A DNA stretch of 30,567 nucleotides, taken from the IMG/VR virus record IMGVR_UViG_3300020465_000063, positions 1-30,567 of that record. One strand, given 5' to 3'. Below, in pieces: positions 9,093 through 24,734 of the stretch. How positions within the stretch are numbered: the stretch's first letter is position 1; the number at the start of each line of letters is the position of its first letter. This DNA is from a virus. Below the pieces are notes generated by a model. It ran no database searches. It saw nothing but the letters and a program-made list of their open reading frames with translations, and was not told the DNA's origin. The translations under genes and the position numbers were made by a program.

Positions 9093-9116
9093 AGGGTGGA
9101 GGTGGAGTTCCACCCT
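9093..9116 (-). terminator. Terminator after major capsid gene
   Basis: Eight-base perfect stem (AGGGTGGA/TCCACCCT) with an eight-base loop, followed on the minus strand by TTTCTTCTGC. It lies 17 bases past the capsid stop, a usual place for a terminator that makes capsid mRNA more abundant than the genes beyond. An inner alternative stem (GGTGGA/TCCACC) is also possible. Confidence 0.6.
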
Positions 9117-9132
9117 AATCTTCAATGTTTAT

Positions 9133-10251
9133 TTATGAAACTGCTTGAATTTTACAATGATATGAAGGAGGACCATATTCAAATCCCATCTCCATATAAA
9201 TTGCTTTACCAATTCTAGCGTTTGCATCTTGGTCTAAATCACGAACAAACACAGTACCATATCCTGGGATATTGGTGAATACTGGTTGTATGTAAGCTAG
9301 GTCCAAGATGAAAGCAGTGTTATCAGGTAGGATGTCTGGGTCAACAACCATCATTCCGATTGAACCGAATGGGGTTACGATTGTATCAACATCTATACCT
9401 GCAACATTTCTATCTCTAGGAATGATTGCTCCTGCTATATCAACTGTTCCTTTAACAAGTTCATTGTTAAGGTCTAGTAATTGTTTTGGACTAACAGCTA
9501 ACACAGGTTGATTCATTGGTGCATGGTTGTCATACATTCTCTTTAACGCACCTGATATAGTTGCGAAACTAAGAACTTGTGTTGAACCACTACCATCACC
9601 TGCTGTGTCGTTGTAGAAACAGTTACCACCTAATGGGTTAACTGCTGCTGTGTTACTTGCGTTCTTGCCTATGGTAATCCATACATCAAGACCATACATT
9701 TCTCTAGTTCCTGACCCAGGGGTGACATTAGCACCATCTGAGAAAGAACCATTGAATGCAAACCACTCAACTTCTCTAGCTACTTTTTCCATTGCTTTTT
9801 CAAGCTGTAATGCAAATTCATCATTTACTGGGTTACCACCGAACAATCCTAATTTATCTGCTGCTGTTACTGTTCCATCTCCATCAGATGAGTTAGCAAT
9901 ATTAGCTGATAAGTCAAAAGGATTTTGGTTACCTGTGGATGCTAAAGCTGTGTAGGTCATTTGTACACCTTTATGGAAAATCTGAGTTACATATGTATAT
10001 GCAGCTCTATCTCTTCCAAGATATTCTGTAGGTGTAGAACCTTCTTGTCCTTTAGTTGGTTCTGAAGAAATGGTTGCATTATCTTCTACTTGGACTTGCC
10101 AAAATGTAGAGTTTAATGTTTTACCACCATTCAAACCACCAACTGCTGAGAGTAAAGGTGTTCTTTGACCACCAACTTTAAACAATTCACCAGTAAAGTT
10201 ATTAATGTTTTGTGCATAAATCGTATTGTTAGTTAACGATATGTCTGCCAT
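9133..10251 (-). CDS. Major capsid protein, SU10/DUF5309-like
   Basis: 372 residues, HK97-fold type. N-terminal region has RTPLLSAVGGLNGGK, then a TYVTQIFHKGVQMTYTALA strand, then EFALQLEKAMEKVAREVEWFAFNG helix. This order (P.L.(A)IGG, TQIF...V.(V/M)(S/T).TA, Q..KA..E..R(D/E)(I/V)E) is the signature of the SU10/DUF5309 major capsid family. The C-terminus includes the strand pairs VDTIVTPFGSIGMMVVDPDI and LAYIQPVFTNIPGYGTVFV expected in the A-domain/P-domain. Preceded by the scaffold gene and a good ribosome site (AGGAGAAGATAAAA), followed by a terminator. Confident on role; family name from memory of the motif pattern. Confidence 0.88.
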   Translation of the reverse strand: MADISLTNNTIYAQNINNFTGELFKVGGQRTPLLSAVGGLNGGKTLNSTFWQVQVEDNATISSEPTKGQEGSTPTEYLGRDRAAYTYVTQIFHKGVQMTYTALASTGNQNPFDLSANIANSSDGDGTVTAADKLGLFGGNPVNDEFALQLEKAMEKVAREVEWFAFNGSFSDGANVTPGSGTREMYGLDVWITIGKNASNTAAVNPLGGNCFYNDTAGDGSGSTQVLSFATISGALKRMYDNHAPMNQPVLAVSPKQLLDLNNELVKGTVDIAGAIIPRDRNVAGIDVDTIVTPFGSIGMMVVDPDILPDNTAFILDLAYIQPVFTNIPGYGTVFVRDLDQDANARIGKAIYMEMGFEYGPPSYHCKIQAVS

Positions 10252-10307
10252 TTTTATCTTCTCCTATAAGTTAATTATTTATTGTTGTTAGAAGAAGTTT
10301 AGAAATT

Positions 10308-10766
10308 CTATTTAGAGTTTTTCTTCGCTTCCTCTATAACAGAAAGTTTTGCAGCGATTGAATTTCGTACATTACCTGATTGTTCTATTTCACGAACTTG
10401 ACCTAGCACATCATTGTCGTAGGTATCTACAACTGAGTTTGCTTGTATATTATTTAAGCGTTCTTGACTTTGTTCTGTACTTTGTACAGCTTCTTGTAAT
10501 CTGTCTTGTTGCCCAAATTCAACTCCAAACTCTTCAGATGCGTATGCCTGGATTCCTTCAACAGTCATATCACCTTCGTACATCATCTCAACTGCTTTGC
10601 CGACACCTTTTGTAGTGTCTAACCCTGCTGATTGAAATACTTGATTTCTTTCTTTAGCTTCAAATTCTGCGATTTTACCTTCATAGAGTTCTACTTTTTC
10701 TCGCATCTCTTTCCAGTTCTTATCGCTACTTGTAGCTTCTTCTGAGTTATTAAGCTCTTCTGTCAT
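10308..10766 (-). CDS. Capsid scaffolding protein
   Basis: 152 residues, acidic and almost wholly helical: a coiled-coil at ~15-42 (NWKEMREKVELYEGKIAEFE), then FQSAGLDTTKGVGKAVEMMYEG and MTVEGIQAYASEEFGVE. The phrase AGLD..KG.GKA(V/I)..(M/L)YEG.(M/L)(T/S) followed by a helical C-terminus is typical of scaffolding proteins preceding HK97-fold capsids. Directly upstream of the capsid gene. It is the first gene after the structured leader and promoter at 10945-10978, so scaffold and capsid are probably co-transcribed from there. Confidence 0.85.
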   Translation of the reverse strand: MTEELNNSEEATSSDKNWKEMREKVELYEGKIAEFEAKERNQVFQSAGLDTTKGVGKAVEMMYEGDMTVEGIQAYASEEFGVEFGQQDRLQEAVQSTEQSQERLNNIQANSVVDTYDNDVLGQVREIEQSGNVRNSIAAKLSVIEEAKKNSK

Positions 10767-10945
10767 TATTCTATTGTCCTTACTTCACACATTTTTTTTA
10801 CGAGAGGTGCATGAGTTACCTCTGAGTGTTTCCACCCATTTTATTTACTCTACTGTTTTTATTTGACAGGTCTTGTCAGTAGGCATCAAGACCGATTACA
10901 AAATCCAGGTCTATTTTTAATTTCGGACCTAGGTACAAAATAGCT
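10767..10945 (-). promoter_or_regulatory. Structured 5' leader with H-type pseudoknot
   Basis: About 180 bases between the predicted transcription start and the scaffold ATG, with several nested structures on the minus strand. Pseudoknot at 10893-10850: stem 1 GGTCTTG/CAAGACC (10893-10887 with 10875-10869), stem 2 CTACTG/CAGTAG (10882-10877 with 10855-10850), loops of 4, 1 and 13 bases, the last A-rich. A hairpin GGGTG-GAAA-CACTC lies at 10837-10824 and AGAGGT/ACCTCT at 10823-10803. An upstream AGGTC segment can pair with either of two GACCT segments. All pairings are exact apart from one G-U. A cis-acting regulatory RNA is likely; class unknown. Confidence 0.6.
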
Positions 10946-10951
10946 AAAGCT

Positions 10952-10978
10952 ATTATATCATAAAAAAAGTAAATGCAA
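10952..10978 (-). promoter_or_regulatory. Promoter for scaffold-capsid transcript
   Basis: Minus strand: TTGCAT (10978-10973), 15-base spacer ending in TGA, TATAAT (10957-10952). The consensus -10 with TG extension compensates for the short spacer. Expected start near 10945. The same layout (TTGNNT, 15 bases ending TGN, TATANT) occurs at 30123-30097. A perfect 12-base palindrome, TTGTTTAAACAA (10980-10991), abuts the -35 and could be an operator. Confidence 0.65.
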
Positions 10979-10994
10979 GTTGTTTAAACAAGGT

Positions 10995-12047
10995 TTAGGA
11001 TTCTAAAAGTCCTGTAACTGCACCTGTTGTAGCTTGTGTTGCACCCAATGAAACTGCACTAGCAGACTCTTGTTGCCTAATAATGTTTACTACTTCTCTT
11101 AGTTCTTCTGATTGTCCTAGTTCTGTACCTTCAATAATATCTTCAACTGTTGGTACATCTCTACCTTGTGATAATGCTTGTTGCTGTATAGACCTAACTT
11201 GTTGGAATCCTCTTCTTGCTGCAGCAACACTAAGACCTAAATCTTTTAATTGTTCTGCTACTTCTACAGATATATCTTCACCTGCAAGTAATGCTTCTGC
11301 ACCTATCTGTGCTGTTTCTATTCTCTCTGCAACTATATCTCTTGATGATATTGTTCCAGAAATAATATCTTGACCTATCTGTGGGTCTATTGCCGATACC
11401 AATATTTCTTCATCTGTTAGTACACGATTAAAGTTTCTTAGATAAAACTCTTTAACTTCTGGTATAGAACCTAATACATCACCTCTTACTGCTTCTATTC
11501 TTGCACCTAACTCATCAGGAGATACCACATTTTCTATAAGTTGTGCCTTTCTTTCAGATGTAAGTATTACATCAGGATTAACATTTATTGCTTCAATCTT
11601 TCTTTTATATCCATCTTCTATCTGTCTATATTCTGCTTCAGTATATTTAACTGTTGCACCATCAGGATTTAAGTTACCTGCAAATGCTTGTTTGTATTCA
11701 GGTGTTTGTCTAACTGCAGATATAGCAGATGATTCATCTTCACCAAATTTTAAATAATTTTCTACCCATACATCTAATAAAGATTGAGATAATAAATTAC
11801 CAAACTTTAATTTACCTATCTCTGCAATTTTATTTTTTGCTGCTTCTGTAAGTTGTGTTGAATCACTTTGTTTTGGTGTACCTGCTGTACCTGTATAGTT
11901 AGAACCACCTAATGTAGTAGAACCTGCTAGTGCCTCTTCATAAGACTCTGTATATCCTGCACTTTCAATTAAAAAATCTGCTCTTTCTCTACTACTAACT
12001 GTAAATCCTGGAAGGTCATCTTTTCTAAATAGTTTTATTTCTGCCAT
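10995..12047 (-). CDS. Probable internal virion protein, 350 aa
   Basis: Not assignable to a named family. 350 residues, predicted mostly helical, acidic and basic residues mixed. A motif region at ~108-140 (LLDVWVENYLKFGEDESSA...RQTPEYKQAFAGNLNPDG) is of a type that I recall from helical proteins in phage ejection/internal blocks (..YL..(F/Y).......A...(L/V)R.TPEYK..F.GN). Contains long helices around VAERIETAQIGAEALLAGED and an alanine/glutamine-rich C-terminus. Last gene of the 14-kb block that begins with the giant protein; coupled to the 437-aa gene by TAATG. An ejected or core protein is the most likely role. Confidence 0.55.
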   Translation of the reverse strand: MAEIKLFRKDDLPGFTVSSRERADFLIESAGYTESYEEALAGSTTLGGSNYTGTAGTPKQSDSTQLTEAAKNKIAEIGKLKFGNLLSQSLLDVWVENYLKFGEDESSAISAVRQTPEYKQAFAGNLNPDGATVKYTEAEYRQIEDGYKRKIEAINVNPDVILTSERKAQLIENVVSPDELGARIEAVRGDVLGSIPEVKEFYLRNFNRVLTDEEILVSAIDPQIGQDIISGTISSRDIVAERIETAQIGAEALLAGEDISVEVAEQLKDLGLSVAAARRGFQQVRSIQQQALSQGRDVPTVEDIIEGTELGQSEELREVVNIIRQQESASAVSLGATQATTGAVTGLLES

Positions 12048-16761: not shown

Positions 16762-17829
16762 TTATCCTCCTTCTGCTACTGTTAAACCTCTAAGGTTTCT
16801 TTGCATTCTAGTAAAAGTATCATCTTCTTCTTCTGATTTTTCTGCTAATGCTTCTCTAGGTGCGAATATCTCATCTAGTACATCTTCACCTGCTTCAGTT
16901 AATATTTCTGGGTCTGGTTCTTCTGCTTCTACTTCTGGAACAAACATTGTTTCTCCTGTAAGTGGGTTGTAGTCTAATCTTTCTTGTTGTTCAGGTTGTA
17001 AGTCACCAAGTGATGATGCGTATTCTTCTGCACTCACACCTAGCTTATTCATAATTATTTGTTTTTCGCTAGAAGATAGTGGACTACCTTTTCTTGTTTC
17101 TGCACCTGCTAACATATCATCAACAAAATCTGTTAGGTCTTCCTCTGTAAACTCATAACTTCCTGTCATGTATGCTTTTTGAGATTGTGCATAATCGTTC
17201 AATGATTTACTTGCACTCATCCAAGACATCTTGCCACCATTGTTCATGCTAAATTCCATAGCTAGTTTTAAACCTTTAAGTGTTTCTGCATCTGCATAAG
17301 TTCCATAAGTCTTATCTAAATTAATTAATCCTGCACTTGATAATAAGTTTTTTGTTGCTATTCGCATAGCAGGAGGTAAAGCATTGAATTGTTTTAATAC
17401 ATCTCTTTGATAATAAACATATTCAAATGCTTCTCCAGTACCAAACATTTCTCTTCTTTCTTTTTGATACAAGTCACTTGTTAAAAACTCTTCTGCAGGA
17501 ATATTTTTTACTAAGGGGTCACCACTATCTGGGTCTGTTTTTACTTGACCACTATCATCATATTGAGGTACTTCATATACTTTTTGAAATCCTTTACCTA
17601 ATGGTTTATTAGGGTCTTCTAATTCCATACCAAATAAATCTGCTATTTCTTGTGCAAACTGTGTTGCATTACCTGAACCTGGTGCAACCATACTTTCTGA
17701 AGGTTCTGCTATATTTTCTGGTGATTGTATTTTACTGTCTTCTTCTACCTCATCTGGCATAAGATATGGCAAACCACCTGTTTCATTATTGTTATCATCT
17801 TCTGCAGGGTGTCCTGGTATATGTGGCAT
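16762..17829 (-). CDS. Probable internal virion protein, 355 aa
   Basis: Unrecognised. 355 residues, strongly acidic, with disordered ends rich in Glu, Asp, Pro and Ser and a helical middle (RDVLKQFNALPPAMRIATKNLLSSAGLI, SSSEKQIIMNKLGVSAEEYASSLG). One-base overlap with the giant gene's stop and two-base gap to the lysozyme gene, so all three are translated as a unit. Probable partner of the giant protein in the virion core or in DNA ejection; inferred from context only. Confidence 0.55.
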   Translation of the reverse strand: MPHIPGHPAEDDNNNETGGLPYLMPDEVEEDSKIQSPENIAEPSESMVAPGSGNATQFAQEIADLFGMELEDPNKPLGKGFQKVYEVPQYDDSGQVKTDPDSGDPLVKNIPAEEFLTSDLYQKERREMFGTGEAFEYVYYQRDVLKQFNALPPAMRIATKNLLSSAGLINLDKTYGTYADAETLKGLKLAMEFSMNNGGKMSWMSASKSLNDYAQSQKAYMTGSYEFTEEDLTDFVDDMLAGAETRKGSPLSSSEKQIIMNKLGVSAEEYASSLGDLQPEQQERLDYNPLTGETMFVPEVEAEEPDPEILTEAGEDVLDEIFAPREALAEKSEEEDDTFTRMQRNLRGLTVAEGG

Positions 17830-20800
17830 TAGTTATTGACTCCAAATCTATTTAACTCGTAACTGAATACTTCATCAAATACTACCATAAACAAGGGTTG
17901 TTTTGTTATAATCTCATACCCTTTATCATATAACTTCATTCTTATTTCTTGTGCTTCATTAGTATCAGATGTAACTAACCAGTTAACAGCGTTTTGTTCA
18001 TTAGGATAATTCTTTTCATCTTGTATAGTGTCTATTGCTACTTGTCTAAAATCTACATATTCTTTTATAAATGGTGTAATATCAAACTCTGCAAACCTTG
18101 GGTCTTCTACTGCTCTTACTAGAAAATCTACAAGCACTCCATTGTTTAATCTTTCTGGTAGTTCACCACCCAATACTTTATTCATTTGTTCTGATTTACC
18201 ATAAGCCATAGGAAACCAATTACCTAATTTTGCATCTATGACTGCATTTGCAGCTTGTATATTTTCTGGTGAATCTTTTCCTGTTGCTATAAGACTCTGT
18301 AACTTATCATCTTTTGCTGCTCTACCCATAATTGATGCTAAATATCTTTGTACCTCTAAGTACATTTCATCTTCATTCTTAGGAGTTATTAATCCCATGT
18401 ATTTTACAGATTGATAACCACTAAAATCTATTTTACCTTCATCTATATTTCTTGAAAAATATACAAGTACAGGACCAAAGTCTGCAGCTAATTCTGGGTT
18501 GTCATTTACAAACTCGTATTCCTTTGTAGTTCTTGGGATTCTACCTGCTTCTGATACTGTTTTACCTCTGACTTGTAAACCTGCAGATGTAAGTTGTTCG
18601 GTTATATCATACTTATCTAAACCAAGTAATCTAACAACTTCAAGTAATGCGTAATACTCTCCTTGTTTTGGTCCAAGTATAGCGTTCCACTGTTTTCTCA
18701 TGTCTTGATAAAAACCATGTATTGCAGCTAACTCAACCATATTGTTGTATGCAATACCTGCTTCGTACCCTTCTTCTCCATACCATTCATTAAAACTTTG
18801 TTCGTTACCTTCTATTTTGTATAGGACACTAAGTTTTGGTGCAAATGGACTAGCAAATCTATCCCATGTTTTTATTGTGTATAAATTATTTCTAACTAAT
18901 GCACCTATTTCTTGTATCTTATCTACATCATCTGCATACTCAGGATGTAACTGTGCTGCTATCTGCATACCATTTGTAGTAGAAGAAATCCATATATCTT
19001 CATCTACACCTTCAAACCCAAACGAATTTCCCATAGAATTAAACCAGTTCTTTGCAACTGATGGTATTGCCATATCTACTAACTCTGCAGGTAACTCTGT
19101 TAGTGATAATGGTTCATCACTAAAAGGTAATTGAAAACCTGCCATAATATTTTTCTCTACAAACCTTCTACCTCCAGGATTATTTCTAAGAAGAAAACCT
19201 AAAGGCATAGTTATACCATCACCTAATGAAGGCAGATAACCTACACCACCAACACCTAATGATTTAAGTGGGTAACCTTTTTTAATGTATACTCTGCTTT
19301 CCTCATCAGATACATCTTCTGTAGCTAAACCACCTAGTTCAGACTTTGTGTGTACTTGTAATGGTGTTCCTGCTGTAGGCATAAACACATACAAATCACC
19401 AAATCTATCTTGTGCAATAACATTGTTTTCAATACCTCTTCTAACACCCTGACCTATTTGTACAGCAGCTTTTGGATTGTTAGCAGTGAGAAGTAAGTAT
19501 CTACCCATATACTCACGATACGCTTCAAAGAAAGCAAATGAACTTCTGTATGCTTGTGCAAAATATCCTCTTTCAGTTAAGTTATATAATAAGTTAGCGT
19601 TTGCTTCCATAGATGCTTCTACTGCTCTTTGATGTATGTCCATAGCACTCATGTTTCTAGTAATGTTTGCTCTAACATCATTCATATCTAATAATGTTGT
19701 GTAGCTGTACTCATCCATGTTTTGCATAATGGTGTTAGTTCTTGGATTAAAGACTTCTAATGATTTATTTTTTCTATCAAAAATACCTTTTATCAAAGAC
19801 TTTTCAAATATATTATCTGCAATAAATGCTTTTTCCTCTATTTCTTTACCTTGTCTACTAGCTAAATAATTTTTACCTCTGACTATTGGTTCATCACCTA
19901 ATGCTTTTACTTGCTTATCATTAAGTAACTTTGTTCCTTTAGTTCTAAGTAAGTTATATACAGCAGAGTTATTTATTACTTCGTATGTGTCATCTTGTTT
20001 AAACACTGCCTCTACTATCTCATCACCTTTTTTTATTAGATATGACTCACCAAAAGTAACTTGGTCTGCTGCTAATGCAAGATACTTTGCTTTAATATAT
20101 GCTTGTACTCCTGCATCAATTCTTGTATCTTTTACACCTCTGTTTATTTTTACTGATACATCTAATACCCATTGACCTCTTGATTCATCCCATTTACCAC
20201 CTAGTACATGGTCAGCTAATCGTAATTTATCTTGATTATCTTTAATAAACATAGACACTGCATCTTTTGTTAAAGAATCTTTACCTGTAATAACTAACTG
20301 TCTTGTTTTGTATGGTGATACATACAACATAGCTTCTTTACCCCAAGAGTCTGGGTTTCCTAAATTTAAACTAAATCCATCTATGTTTGCTTGTGTAAAT
20401 CTATATACCTCATCAATAAGTTCATCAGTAATATTTTGTTTAGGTATAACTATATTTATTTTTTTACCTAATACTTTTTCTATAGTTTTTTTTCCTACAT
20501 CAAATGTAAGTTCACCACTGTAATTGTTTGTTTGTGATTTGCCTTTAGTAGATGATTGAAACTTACTTTTCATTTCTGTTAGGTTTGGTTGTTTGTTTGA
20601 TAATCCAAGTATTTCTTCCAAACCTTTTTTAGTTGCACCTGGTTTACTTAAATAATCTATTGCTTCATTTACTATGATGTCAATATCTCTGTCACCATAA
20701 CCACTATCAAAACTATTTTTAAGTACATCTTTTAATAAACCTTCGTTAGGTAATGCACCATTGTAAATAACTTCATCTTTTTTAAAGTTAGTTACAAATG

Positions 20801-23800
20801 TACCAACCTTAGAATCATCAAATCCCAATCTTCCTTCAGCTATATTATCTGCAGAACCATAAACTAATTTCTCTGCATCTTGTACATCAGTAGTAAATTT
20901 TATACTATCTTTGTTAAGAGGGTTTTTTGCAAGAAAGTTTACACTTCTATTACCACCTTGTTCTGTAAATACAGTTGCAGTAAATGTTGTTTCACCCTTG
21001 TAAGTCTTCTGTGTTACTTGTGGTTTTATGTTTACATTTAAGACTTCATCATATTCTTCTAATGTAGATACTGCTCTATCTCTTTCTTTTTGTATTACCT
21101 CTATAACATCATCAGATAAATTAATAACACTGTCTTCATCATTGTGTATTTTAAGTAATTCATCTAGTTCTGCTCTTCTACCAAATACAGAGAATGCTTT
21201 AACAAATTCATCATATCCTTGTTTTAAATAAGGTATACGAATAAATGAACCTTCACCTTGTGTAGTAGCAAAAAATAAAGAATTTAAAAGATTTCTAAAT
21301 GTTTTTTTACCTTCTATAATTTGTCGCTCTGCATCCATCTTTGGATAAGGTATTTCAAAAGGCAACTTATCAACATTCTTGTTATACAATGTAGCAATTC
21401 TTCTTGATGCTTTTTCTGCTATGTCTGGTGTAGTAGAAGATAAATCTCTAAGATTAATGTTTCCTATTTTTGAATCTGCAATAACATTTAATAAATCAGC
21501 AGAACCACCTGTATAATTATCTATACTTTGACTGTAATGTTTTGCAAGTCGTAAAAAATCTTCTTCTGTCTGAACAACACCAACTTCTAAGTTTCTTTGT
21601 TTTGGTCCTCGTATTTGAAACCCTTGATTTCCTTCATCTATTATTTTTAAAAATGCAGGTTCTTTTTGTAATGTCTGTGCCATTTGTTCTAAGGTATAAC
21701 CTTGTCTTTTCATACCTGCTATTGCAGGTGCAAGTTCATCATCTATGTATTTATATAAGAAATATTCGTATGCTTTTACATGGTCAGGACTTTGTTTGTT
21801 TATAAGGTCATGTCCTGTATTTGTAATAAATCTATTATTGACAAATTTAACATCTGCAGAAAACAACTGTGCAATCTCTTGTGCGCCAAATTCCTGTGAA
21901 TCAGATAAAACACCCAAAGACTTTCTTATTCGTTTTGGTATTAAATCATTTAAAAATTTTAATTGTGGTGTTGTTGCTTCTATTGCTTTTGTAGTTCTAT
22001 ATGGTCCACTAATCATAGTTGAAGGTTTACCAAATACTCGTGTCAATATACCCTCTGGGTCATTAAGCATAAGTTTTAAAGAATCAATAGGGTTTTTAAG
22101 CATGTTTCTTACACCCATAATATTGAACTTAACCATGGCATCTACAATTAGTTTTAATGGATAACTTAATCTAAATAACAAAAATGCAGGGTATCTAAAG
22201 TTTCTCATATAACCAAACACAACATTGTCGTATGTCTGTACACCTTTTTCCATAGCAGTAAATAAAATGTTAGGGTCATCAAAATCTGTAAATACATCAT
22301 CAATTACTTCTCTTAATGCACTATCTTCTTTCCAAAAATCTACTTTGACACCTTCATCTGCTGCTTTACGCACTACATCAAATATTTCTTCAACACCTTC
22401 TTTGTTTGTTAATTGTCTTTTTATTCTTCTTTTAGCTGATGTTGCTCTAAGTAATCCTTGTATATCTGGTCCATGTATAGTTAAGTTTTTAAGTTGACCA
22501 TATAGTTCTAATGATTGTTTTGTAAGGTGTACCATATCTTGTTCAGATGCAACAGAACCAAACATTTTATTTGTTATAATATCTACTTCCATTGGGTCAT
22601 AAAACTCTGGACTTCTTGATGGTGACATAGGTTTAAACTCTCCATCACTAAAACCTTGTTTGTCATTTTTAAGATAATACTTACTCATAAAATCATCTAT
22701 CTCATTGTCTGTTAAACCATAAGTACTTTTAAGTTGTAATCCTAATTCTCCAAATACTAATTTGTTTTGAAATATTTCTTTTGCTTGAAACCATTGACCA
22801 TTAGATAAAGCATCATAAAATTCTGAGGAAAGTTCTTCTAGTCTGCTTTCTGGTACTTTACTTGCATATCCATATCTAATAAAATATTCCATAGCTTCTT
22901 TTGTGTTTTCTAAATCTGCAGGTTTTAACTTAGGTAATTTAATATCTCTTGCTAAGAAAGTATCTCTAAAACCACCACCTCTTTTATATGCAGCTTCTAT
23001 ACCTTCATCTAATTCTTTATTTATTAATGCTTCTAAATTACTTTCATATATTACTTTTGACTGTAGGTGTTTATTTTTACCTCTACCCATAAAACTACCA
23101 CCATAAAACATATCTGTTACAAAACCATTTTCAATACCATTTTCTATTGTTTGCATTATGTCATCTGCAGTAGTGTCAGCAGATTTAATTCTATAAACAA
23201 AGTCTGGATGAAAACCTTCGTTTATTAAATAAATACCGACTGGTCTATTTTCATCTTTTGCTTTTACAATTAAATTTGCAATACCTTCAAAGGTTTCTTT
23301 ATTATCATCAAATATCTGTCTAGCAGTTAAACCCTTATCTAACTGTTCTGGAAGTGACCTACCTAGTGATGTAAGAACCTCATCAAAGTTAGCAGTTGTT
23401 GTTCGTGCTGCTAGTCCTGAACCAGGAACTAAATAATTTAAAGGGTCAAGAAATATAAATTTTGCTGTATTAATTAATCCTGCGAAAAATCCTGCCATAC
23501 TTTTAGTTTTTTCATAACCTATATCTTGTATAGCATTGAACTTTGCTTGTTCTGCATTTTCTAATATATCAAAATATTGTGTTCCATTAATTTTTCCTGT
23601 ATCAAGAGCCACTTGTGCTTCTTGTTCTACTCTGTCATACTCACTATCTAAAAATTCTGTAACATAGTTAGCGTAACCATAGTTAGTAGAAAGGTTACCT
23701 GTTAAGCCAAAGACAATACCATCACCTAATCCCACAGGTATAGCTTGATTAAAAAATGTTTCGTTTAGTTCTTGTTGTCTATCAAACTCAGGATTTAATG

Positions 23801-24734
23801 CAAATATATCTGCAATACCTTTTGCACCTGTATCTGGGTCAATAATGTCATCTACAGTTTGAAAGAATAATCCTGCTTTTTCTACAAAAGATAAATCCCT
23901 ACCTTTTTCATTTTTAAGTGCAGTAATTTTTTCTCCGATAATGTCTGGAAACAACTCATTAAATATATCTAAATCTGATTTAGTTATTAATGGATTACCT
24001 TCTTCATCTACAATACCTCTGGCTACTAAAAAGTTTTTTGCTGTTTCTGATGGTGTATAGTATGTATCATTGTTTTTAAGTTTTGCAATTCTTTGATTTT
24101 CGTAATTTCTAAATGCTTTTGCATGTGCAATTAAACCTGGTATAAAAGGTAACTCATTATCTTTTAAGTTTTCATAACCTGCTATCTGAACAACATCAGA
24201 AAGAGTTTTGCCTCTTTTATTTAACTCTTCTTCTAATGCTGCTTGATACTCAACACTATAATTTCTAACTCTTTTGTCAGTGCCTTGTATAAGACCATCT
24301 GCAAATATACGAAGTGTACCAAACAAATAAGAAGTAAATTTATTAACTATTTTATTTGCAGTATCAGGTATTATTCCAAAAGTATTTGCTACATTACCTG
24401 ATAACTTCATCATTAATGCAGGTCCTAAACCATAAGATTGTTTTGTTTTATCTTCAACACCTTGACTTCTATTGTTTGTGTAACTTACAGGAGGTGTTTT
24501 TGTTTGTGACCAAACACTAATATATTCTTGGTCTGTTAATCCCATGTCTGCTGCTGCTGCAATAAACTCTGGTTCTTCTGTTGGTGTAAGTGATTCTAGT
24601 TCTTCAAATTTTTTTATAAACTTTTCTACATCTGGTCCTGCATCAGCTTCTGCTTTATTTAATTGTTTGTTATAGAGTTGTTCTTCTTGATAACCCTTAT
24701 ACCAGTTTTGACTCCAATTTGTCCATAATGACAT
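17829..24734 (-). CDS. Giant 2301-aa internal/ejection virion protein
   Basis: The longest gene of the window, uninterrupted over 6.9 kb. The product is mostly helical with several hydrophobic or amphipathic patches, e.g. ~412-437 (MAGFFAGLINTAKFIFLDPL) and ~844-867 (RYPAFLLFRLSYPLKLIV), which could contact membranes. Around 1505-1527 a segment LADHVLGGKWDES..QWVLDVS resembles, to my recollection, a domain in giant proteins of actinophages. Near 1715-1760 (TERGYFAQAYRSSFAFFEAY) is an aromatic helix region. No protease, kinase or nuclease motif stands out. Size, order (portal, two small genes, giant, lysozyme) and coupling suggest the ejected transport protein, the role T7 gp16 plays. A polyvalent multi-domain protein is the alternative. 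Confidence 0.65.
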   Translation of the reverse strand: MSLWTNWSQNWYKGYQEEQLYNKQLNKAEADAGPDVEKFIKKFEELESLTPTEEPEFIAAAADMGLTDQEYISVWSQTKTPPVSYTNNRSQGVEDKTKQSYGLGPALMMKLSGNVANTFGIIPDTANKIVNKFTSYLFGTLRIFADGLIQGTDKRVRNYSVEYQAALEEELNKRGKTLSDVVQIAGYENLKDNELPFIPGLIAHAKAFRNYENQRIAKLKNNDTYYTPSETAKNFLVARGIVDEEGNPLITKSDLDIFNELFPDIIGEKITALKNEKGRDLSFVEKAGLFFQTVDDIIDPDTGAKGIADIFALNPEFDRQQELNETFFNQAIPVGLGDGIVFGLTGNLSTNYGYANYVTEFLDSEYDRVEQEAQVALDTGKINGTQYFDILENAEQAKFNAIQDIGYEKTKSMAGFFAGLINTAKFIFLDPLNYLVPGSGLAARTTTANFDEVLTSLGRSLPEQLDKGLTARQIFDDNKETFEGIANLIVKAKDENRPVGIYLINEGFHPDFVYRIKSADTTADDIMQTIENGIENGFVTDMFYGGSFMGRGKNKHLQSKVIYESNLEALINKELDEGIEAAYKRGGGFRDTFLARDIKLPKLKPADLENTKEAMEYFIRYGYASKVPESRLEELSSEFYDALSNGQWFQAKEIFQNKLVFGELGLQLKSTYGLTDNEIDDFMSKYYLKNDKQGFSDGEFKPMSPSRSPEFYDPMEVDIITNKMFGSVASEQDMVHLTKQSLELYGQLKNLTIHGPDIQGLLRATSAKRRIKRQLTNKEGVEEIFDVVRKAADEGVKVDFWKEDSALREVIDDVFTDFDDPNILFTAMEKGVQTYDNVVFGYMRNFRYPAFLLFRLSYPLKLIVDAMVKFNIMGVRNMLKNPIDSLKLMLNDPEGILTRVFGKPSTMISGPYRTTKAIEATTPQLKFLNDLIPKRIRKSLGVLSDSQEFGAQEIAQLFSADVKFVNNRFITNTGHDLINKQSPDHVKAYEYFLYKYIDDELAPAIAGMKRQGYTLEQMAQTLQKEPAFLKIIDEGNQGFQIRGPKQRNLEVGVVQTEEDFLRLAKHYSQSIDNYTGGSADLLNVIADSKIGNINLRDLSSTTPDIAEKASRRIATLYNKNVDKLPFEIPYPKMDAERQIIEGKKTFRNLLNSLFFATTQGEGSFIRIPYLKQGYDEFVKAFSVFGRRAELDELLKIHNDEDSVINLSDDVIEVIQKERDRAVSTLEEYDEVLNVNIKPQVTQKTYKGETTFTATVFTEQGGNRSVNFLAKNPLNKDSIKFTTDVQDAEKLVYGSADNIAEGRLGFDDSKVGTFVTNFKKDEVIYNGALPNEGLLKDVLKNSFDSGYGDRDIDIIVNEAIDYLSKPGATKKGLEEILGLSNKQPNLTEMKSKFQSSTKGKSQTNNYSGELTFDVGKKTIEKVLGKKINIVIPKQNITDELIDEVYRFTQANIDGFSLNLGNPDSWGKEAMLYVSPYKTRQLVITGKDSLTKDAVSMFIKDNQDKLRLADHVLGGKWDESRGQWVLDVSVKINRGVKDTRIDAGVQAYIKAKYLALAADQVTFGESYLIKKGDEIVEAVFKQDDTYEVINNSAVYNLLRTKGTKLLNDKQVKALGDEPIVRGKNYLASRQGKEIEEKAFIADNIFEKSLIKGIFDRKNKSLEVFNPRTNTIMQNMDEYSYTTLLDMNDVRANITRNMSAMDIHQRAVEASMEANANLLYNLTERGYFAQAYRSSFAFFEAYREYMGRYLLLTANNPKAAVQIGQGVRRGIENNVIAQDRFGDLYVFMPTAGTPLQVHTKSELGGLATEDVSDEESRVYIKKGYPLKSLGVGGVGYLPSLGDGITMPLGFLLRNNPGGRRFVEKNIMAGFQLPFSDEPLSLTELPAELVDMAIPSVAKNWFNSMGNSFGFEGVDEDIWISSTTNGMQIAAQLHPEYADDVDKIQEIGALVRNNLYTIKTWDRFASPFAPKLSVLYKIEGNEQSFNEWYGEEGYEAGIAYNNMVELAAIHGFYQDMRKQWNAILGPKQGEYYALLEVVRLLGLDKYDITEQLTSAGLQVRGKTVSEAGRIPRTTKEYEFVNDNPELAADFGPVLVYFSRNIDEGKIDFSGYQSVKYMGLITPKNEDEMYLEVQRYLASIMGRAAKDDKLQSLIATGKDSPENIQAANAVIDAKLGNWFPMAYGKSEQMNKVLGGELPERLNNGVLVDFLVRAVEDPRFAEFDITPFIKEYVDFRQVAIDTIQDEKNYPNEQNAVNWLVTSDTNEAQEIRMKLYDKGYEIITKQPLFMVVFDEVFSYELNRFGVNN

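Follow-up and report, generated by a model that had tools for sequence, protein, structure and literature searches.

In phage T4, gp32 binds a pseudoknot in the leader of its own mRNA and represses its own translation, and a 2010 review regarded the T4-type gene 32 pseudoknot as perhaps still the only viral one engaged in translational autoregulation (PMC3014915). The translational operator of E. coli rpsO (S15) likewise contains a pseudoknot (PMC3014915), and autoregulation of P22 scaffolding is named in the title of a paper by Wyckoff and Casjens (1985), a title cited in PMC5744158. Several pseudoknots in one RNA are found in tmRNA (pk1-pk4, with the tandem pk4a/4b in cyanobacteria), a bacterial RNA in which three of the four are reported to be interchangeable, so that architecture outweighs sequence (PMC1168896), and in the upstream domain of the tobamovirus 3' UTR, where three consecutive pseudoknots affect both translation and RNA accumulation (PMC4683447). 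At the phage locus analyzed here, the predicted leader of the scaffold-capsid mRNA consists entirely of three H-type pseudoknots chained head to tail (PK1, PK2 and PK3; Table 1).

The locus lies in a stretch of 30,567 nucleotides from the IMG/VR virus record IMGVR_UViG_3300020465_000063, referred to below as the window. All named genes of the region are on the minus strand, and a 228-base gap separates the upstream gene (10995-12047) from the scaffold gene, whose position is that of the annotated scaffolding genes in Mendokysei and Nebkiss. Both promoter and start site are predicted from sequence, and the -10 and the possible -35 are closely spaced; counted from TATAAT at 10957-10952, the leader would be ~180 bases long, with the order promoter, PK1, PK2, PK3, Shine-Dalgarno sequence and ATG. 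A terminator-like site was present no more than 150 bases from the capsid stop codon in 51 of 124 related loci, compared with 0 of 124 shuffled sequences. Given the leader promoter and the terminator-like hairpin after the capsid gene, the transcript most likely consists of leader, scaffold and capsid. Elsewhere in the window, a single open reading frame of 2301 aa (17829-24734, minus strand) takes up more than one-fifth of the sequence.

Table 1. Coordinates of the leader elements and flanking genes in the window
Feature	Position	Strand	Sequence or pairing	Basis and remarks
Possible -35 element	10973-10978	-	TTGCAT	15-base spacing to -10
-10 promoter element, predicted	10952-10957	-	TATAAT	sequence; kept ahead of PK1
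PK1	10905-10941	-		H-type pseudoknot; class A covariation
PK1 stem 1		-	AUUUUG 10936-10941 / CGAAAU 10920-10925	
PK1 stem 2		-	CUAGGUC 10926-10932 / GACCUGG 10905-10911	
PK2	10850-10893	-		H-type pseudoknot; middle module of three
PK2 stem 1		-	GGUCUUG 10887-10893 / CAAGACC 10869-10875	7 pairs
PK2 stem 2		-	CUACUG 10877-10882 / CAGUAG 10850-10855	6 pairs
PK3	10785-10823	-		H-type pseudoknot; class A covariation
PK3 stem 1		-	AGAGGU 10818-10823 / ACCUCU 10803-10808	
PK3 stem 2		-	UCAUGC 10809-10814 / GUGUGA 10785-10790	
Shine-Dalgarno	10777-10781	-	AAGGA	sequence; kept in class A alignment; 3 bases past PK3
Scaffold protein gene, 152 aa	10308-10766	-		opens the predicted transcript; directly ahead of capsid gene; PHROG 7813 (unknown function)
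Major capsid protein gene, 372 aa	9133-10251	-		Pfam SU10_MCP 1.6e-43; PHROG 1328 major head protein
Terminator-like hairpin	9093-9116	-	AGGGTGG..CCACCCT then TTTCTT	3' of capsid gene

PK2 had been proposed in the first-pass annotation as an H-type pseudoknot in the scaffold-capsid leader, and it proved to lie exactly at the coordinates claimed, with the stems of Table 1 and three loops (loop 1, AUGC; loop 2, A; loop 3, UGUCAAAUAAAAA, 13 bases at 10856-10868); 83 bases separate PK2 from the scaffold ATG (10766). Although PK2 is genuine, it is one of three such modules (four in another class of leaders), and the flanking PK1 and PK3 had been missed. The PK2 score was matched by 9 of 500 dinucleotide-shuffled leaders and by 12 of 534 window tiles, PK2's own two included, and a scan of the window for chains placed the leader merely among the top few of 1216 tiles; PK3 was passed over by the energy-based chain finder in the window because it is G-U rich there. 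In the window sequence alone, PK2 is modestly unusual and constitutes weak evidence; the comparative data decide.

Searches of viral contigs for capsid and scaffold yielded 143 loci, and the leaders were sorted into classes A (the window type), B, C, D and E, with one further leader (L294) and the two-leader classes C and D assigned by eye. Leaders of classes A and B carry three pseudoknots and those of class E four; the class E capsid protein is ~65-75% identical to that of the window, and the leaders of many relatives have hardly any sequence in common with the window leader. The exact PK2 core pattern was found in 77 stretches of viral contigs, and the class A core was absent from all 84,980 GTDB genomes. 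A small extra hairpin (GGGUGGAAACACUC, 10825-10838, minus strand) between PK2 and PK3 is present in the window and its nearest relatives and lacking in the majority of class A leaders, as an insertion specific to that lineage. In classes C and E and in L294, PK1 contains a common string, CGUUGCGUGGUCCG (L063, L067, L219, L294), the rest of the leader differing, which points to common ancestry of PK1. Such a leader was not present in the named or cultured relatives Mendokysei, Nebkiss, Dulem virus 32 and BigBern1, in which only ~40-100 bases lie between the scaffold-position gene and the preceding gene. The class A core occurs twice in the 40.6-kb contig IMGVR_UViG_3300030106_001776 (L178, L197), perhaps through terminal redundancy or a repeat made in assembly; two contigs of ~53 kb each, 3300020468_000009 (L024, L046) and 3300025769_000167 (L500, L505), each contain two separate capsid genes or a pair of class B leader sites and are possibly tandem phages or assembly joins.

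The first-pass annotation had called for a covariation search in homologous leaders, and covariation was found in a set of ~145 distinct leaders of related phage contigs belonging to classes A, B and E. Across these classes, 94.6-97.4% of the pairs proposed can form, and changes to both partners of a pair were 3 to 7 times commoner than in shuffles (0/500 in each class). In the 64 distinct leaders of class A, pairing holds in 94.6% of 2295 pair cells versus 87.5% (sd 0.3) in shuffles, both partners are changed in 163 cells versus 49 (0/500), and slid control structures paired in at most 48% of cells. In class A the number of pairs with a both-side change was less clear-cut (11 versus 8.5 shuffled, 25/500), and further pair types were no more numerous than in shuffles; a few rows misplaced by MAFFT in PK1 and PK3 lowered the counts. 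Both-side changes in class A affected 4 of 6 pairs of stem 1 and 2 of 5 pairs of stem 2 in PK1, and 2 of 6 pairs in each stem of PK3 (pair types AU/UA/GC and GC/AU in stem 1, CG/UA and UA/AU in stem 2). The 46-base core of class A PK2 is nearly invariant in the 64 leaders: stem 1 is unchanged in all of them, and 96.9% of stem 2 cells are paired, the final pair being G-C, A-U or U-A and unpaired in 12 sequences.

Classes B and E gave the same signal from other sequences. For class B (30 distinct leaders; one gap column of the alignment was moved by script before counting), 97.4% of pairs form versus 90.1% in shuffles, with both-side changes in 17 pairs and 87 cells versus 9.1 and 23.1 (0/500). 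All 8 pairs of class B PK2 stem 1 have changed on both sides, while PK2 stem 2 and PK3 barely vary in this class and so provide little evidence there. In the 48 class E leaders, 97.3% of pairs form versus 93.2% in shuffles, and both-side changes affected 17 pairs versus 7.3 and 73 cells versus 11.1 (0/500). When both-side events were mapped on trees of the downstream DNA, 64 were counted in class A (8-14 for slid partners) and 35 in class E (2-7 for slid partners), counts that recombination between leader and genes may inflate. G-U cells outnumbered A-C cells by 125 to 19 in class A and by 75 to 15 in class E, an excess indicating that the element acts as RNA of the mRNA strand.

An unbiased finder, in which chains of H-type pseudoknots were scored in leaders against 100 shuffles and also for each tile of a locus, ranked six class A and six class E-like leaders above all 100 shuffles and class B leaders above 98-99 of 100, whereas class C leader L316 and class D were marginal (2-3/100) and class C leader L304 was not significant (10/100). 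In the class A and class E loci tested, the window excepted, no tile outscored that of the leader; in the class B locus L015 another tile scored higher. Both stems covary across classes A, B and E, and the loop lengths are sterically ordinary for an H-type pseudoknot; hairpins that alternate would give the same compensatory signal as two stems formed together. From these comparisons we consider it nearly certain that the chain of pseudoknots exists and works as RNA. Chance pairing, or conservation at the DNA level devoid of RNA function, finds support in the shuffles that equaled PK2 in the window, but it is contradicted by the covariation in three classes, by the slid controls and by the G-U/A-C asymmetry, and is extremely improbable.

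The chain also occupies one place in the transcript. Counted from the -10 hexamer, stem 1 of PK1 starts 6-13 bases downstream (mostly 7-10) in class A, 7 bases downstream in 29 of the 29 class B leaders scored and 6-8 bases downstream in class E; PK1 thus sits at the expected start distance in all classes measured, and the mRNA would begin at PK1. The predicted promoter sits upstream of PK2, and a transcription start downstream of the element, which the first-pass annotation had named as an objection, is accordingly not what the locus predicts. In leaders of class B (L007, for instance, upstream of 4327), a TTGACA -35 is embedded in the final codons (GGC TTG ACA GAA) of the upstream gene, 15 bases ahead of TATACT. 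The last pseudoknot ends ~0-8 bases from the Shine-Dalgarno sequence, and the capsid gene follows 508-682 bases downstream in 122 of the 122 testable sites (those with at least 1300 bases of downstream sequence). Being compact, structured and preceded by its own predicted promoter, the 5' region could be cut from the mRNA as a separable, trans-acting RNA (a small RNA or a packaging RNA). Yet no terminator intervenes between chain and scaffold gene, the last pseudoknot lies directly against the Shine-Dalgarno sequence and the linkage to scaffold and capsid is fixed at every testable site, so that release of such an RNA from the leader is very improbable.

The host is perhaps a marine actinobacterium, and perhaps a member of Ca. 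Actinomarinales, a low-G+C group for which phages have been reported (PMC7771536). Distant capsid relatives belong to phages of Mycobacterium, Propionibacterium, Bifidobacterium and Eggerthella. Capsid genes 71-84% identical are found on two contigs of a single Actinomycetota MAG, and one of these contigs has a class B leader.

The RNA element probably controls how much capsid is made. The reading that we favor, at a probability of roughly 45%, is that of a cis-acting structural leader that would shield the 5' end of the mRNA and gate the ribosome site. On general grounds, a pseudoknot at the very 5' end would be expected to retard decay that starts from that end, and one lying at the Shine-Dalgarno sequence to influence landing of the 30S subunit. 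PK1 would leave little single-stranded 5' end and would thereby slow decay that depends on it (RppH, RNase E/J), the chain would fold the leader locally so that it could not pair with the ribosome site, and the last pseudoknot, touching the Shine-Dalgarno sequence, would set the ease with which the 30S subunit lands; the outcome would be a long-lived, steadily translated mRNA for the proteins most needed by the phage. The classes retain the chain but neither its sequence nor its number of modules (three or four), which suggests a role for the architecture itself.

A ligand-sensing switch, suggested in the first-pass annotation, did not hold up as the leading idea. H-type pseudoknots with an A-rich loop 3 are known in small-ligand riboswitches, and the middle module has a recurring loop 3 start (UGU or CGU), with stem 2 kept as CUACG/CGUAG in several classes; a near-invariant core was found within class A only. 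Against a riboswitch of tandem pseudoknot aptamers, no expression platform was seen, almost no primary sequence is common to the leader classes, no terminator/antiterminator or hidden Shine-Dalgarno sequence was seen, and the genes downstream were always those for capsid in the 122 testable sites. An Rfam scan of the window at the gathering threshold gave 0 matches (tmRNA included), and permissive E-values gave chance matches only in four leaders of classes A, B and E, with no riboswitch family on the mRNA strand; the sole SAM-II match (RF01726) scored 14.9 bits against a gathering score of 44, lay on the opposite strand and did not recur in the other leaders, and the preQ1-I covariance model had no match at E up to 5 in the four leaders. 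A ligand-sensing function is therefore improbable.

The main rival to the cis-acting structural leader is autogenous control, in which free scaffold protein (or, less likely, capsid protein) would bind the chain, docking at PK2, and repress translation or speed decay; synthesis would then follow assembly. The near-invariance of PK2 in class A exceeds a purely structural need and points to sequence-specific recognition, and a trans factor might thus contact PK2 in the structural leader as well. Leader and scaffold classes switch together, with scaffold identity 24-42% between and 43-99% within classes, while the capsid is 82-87% identical among classes A-D despite the leader switch, which fits scaffold better than capsid as the regulator and, together with the nearly invariant PK2, makes scaffold the best candidate binder; T4 gp32 and, to judge from the cited title, P22 scaffolding provide precedents (PMC3014915, PMC5744158). 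However, co-segregation of leader and scaffold is also expected from physical linkage alone, the leader-scaffold correlation within class A is not significant (14 usable loci, Mantel p ~0.11) and an RNA-binding domain was not detected in the scaffold. We regard autogenous control by the scaffold protein as tentative and on the unlikely side. The fuller version of it, in which a chain of three or four modules would read free scaffold and meter capsid synthesis in marine Actinomycetota phages, chain length and module sequence being swapped together with the scaffold gene, is slightly more doubtful still. Over the interval that corresponds to 9133-12047 in the window, identity across classes A-D is 82-87% for the capsid, 24-42% for the scaffold and 22-37% for the upstream gene, a drop that forms a sharp mosaic boundary where scaffold meets capsid.

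No description of this pseudoknot-chain leader was found in the papers searched, and the described systems each match it in part. The gene 32 leaders of T4, T2 and RB69 likewise carry an H-type pseudoknot ahead of the ribosome site of a phage mRNA, followed by A/U-rich sequence (67 bases upstream of the start codon for the T4 pseudoknot, 83 for PK2); but they have one pseudoknot, in enterobacterial phages, ahead of a gene for a single-stranded-DNA-binding protein, whereas here three or four are chained ahead of scaffold and SU10-type capsid genes, and the binder is only a candidate. The rpsO operator pseudoknot overlaps the ribosome site, while PK3 stops just short of the Shine-Dalgarno sequence. 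The tobamovirus domain is located at the 3' end of a plant RNA virus beside a tRNA-like structure rather than in the 5' leader of a DNA phage mRNA, and tmRNA is a stable, trans-acting ribosome-rescue RNA, while the leader has no tRNA-like or tag-coding domain. Gene 32, tobamovirus and tmRNA thus each share a structural trait and fail on context, so that the leader is not a member of those families. SAM-II and preQ1 are single small H-type pseudoknots with an A-rich loop 3 whose ligand core and expression platform have no counterpart found here. What emerges is a pseudoknot chain that is absent from Rfam, is strongly supported by covariation and has a fixed position ahead of the capsid genes in a large marine phage group; its natural variants (three or four modules, many sequences) could be used to probe how pseudoknots control mRNA life and translation, and the chain offers a way into how phages balance scaffold and capsid. 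As a structured, pseudoknotted mRNA leader the element is of a known kind; new are the chaining of three or four pseudoknots and their service to scaffold and capsid genes.
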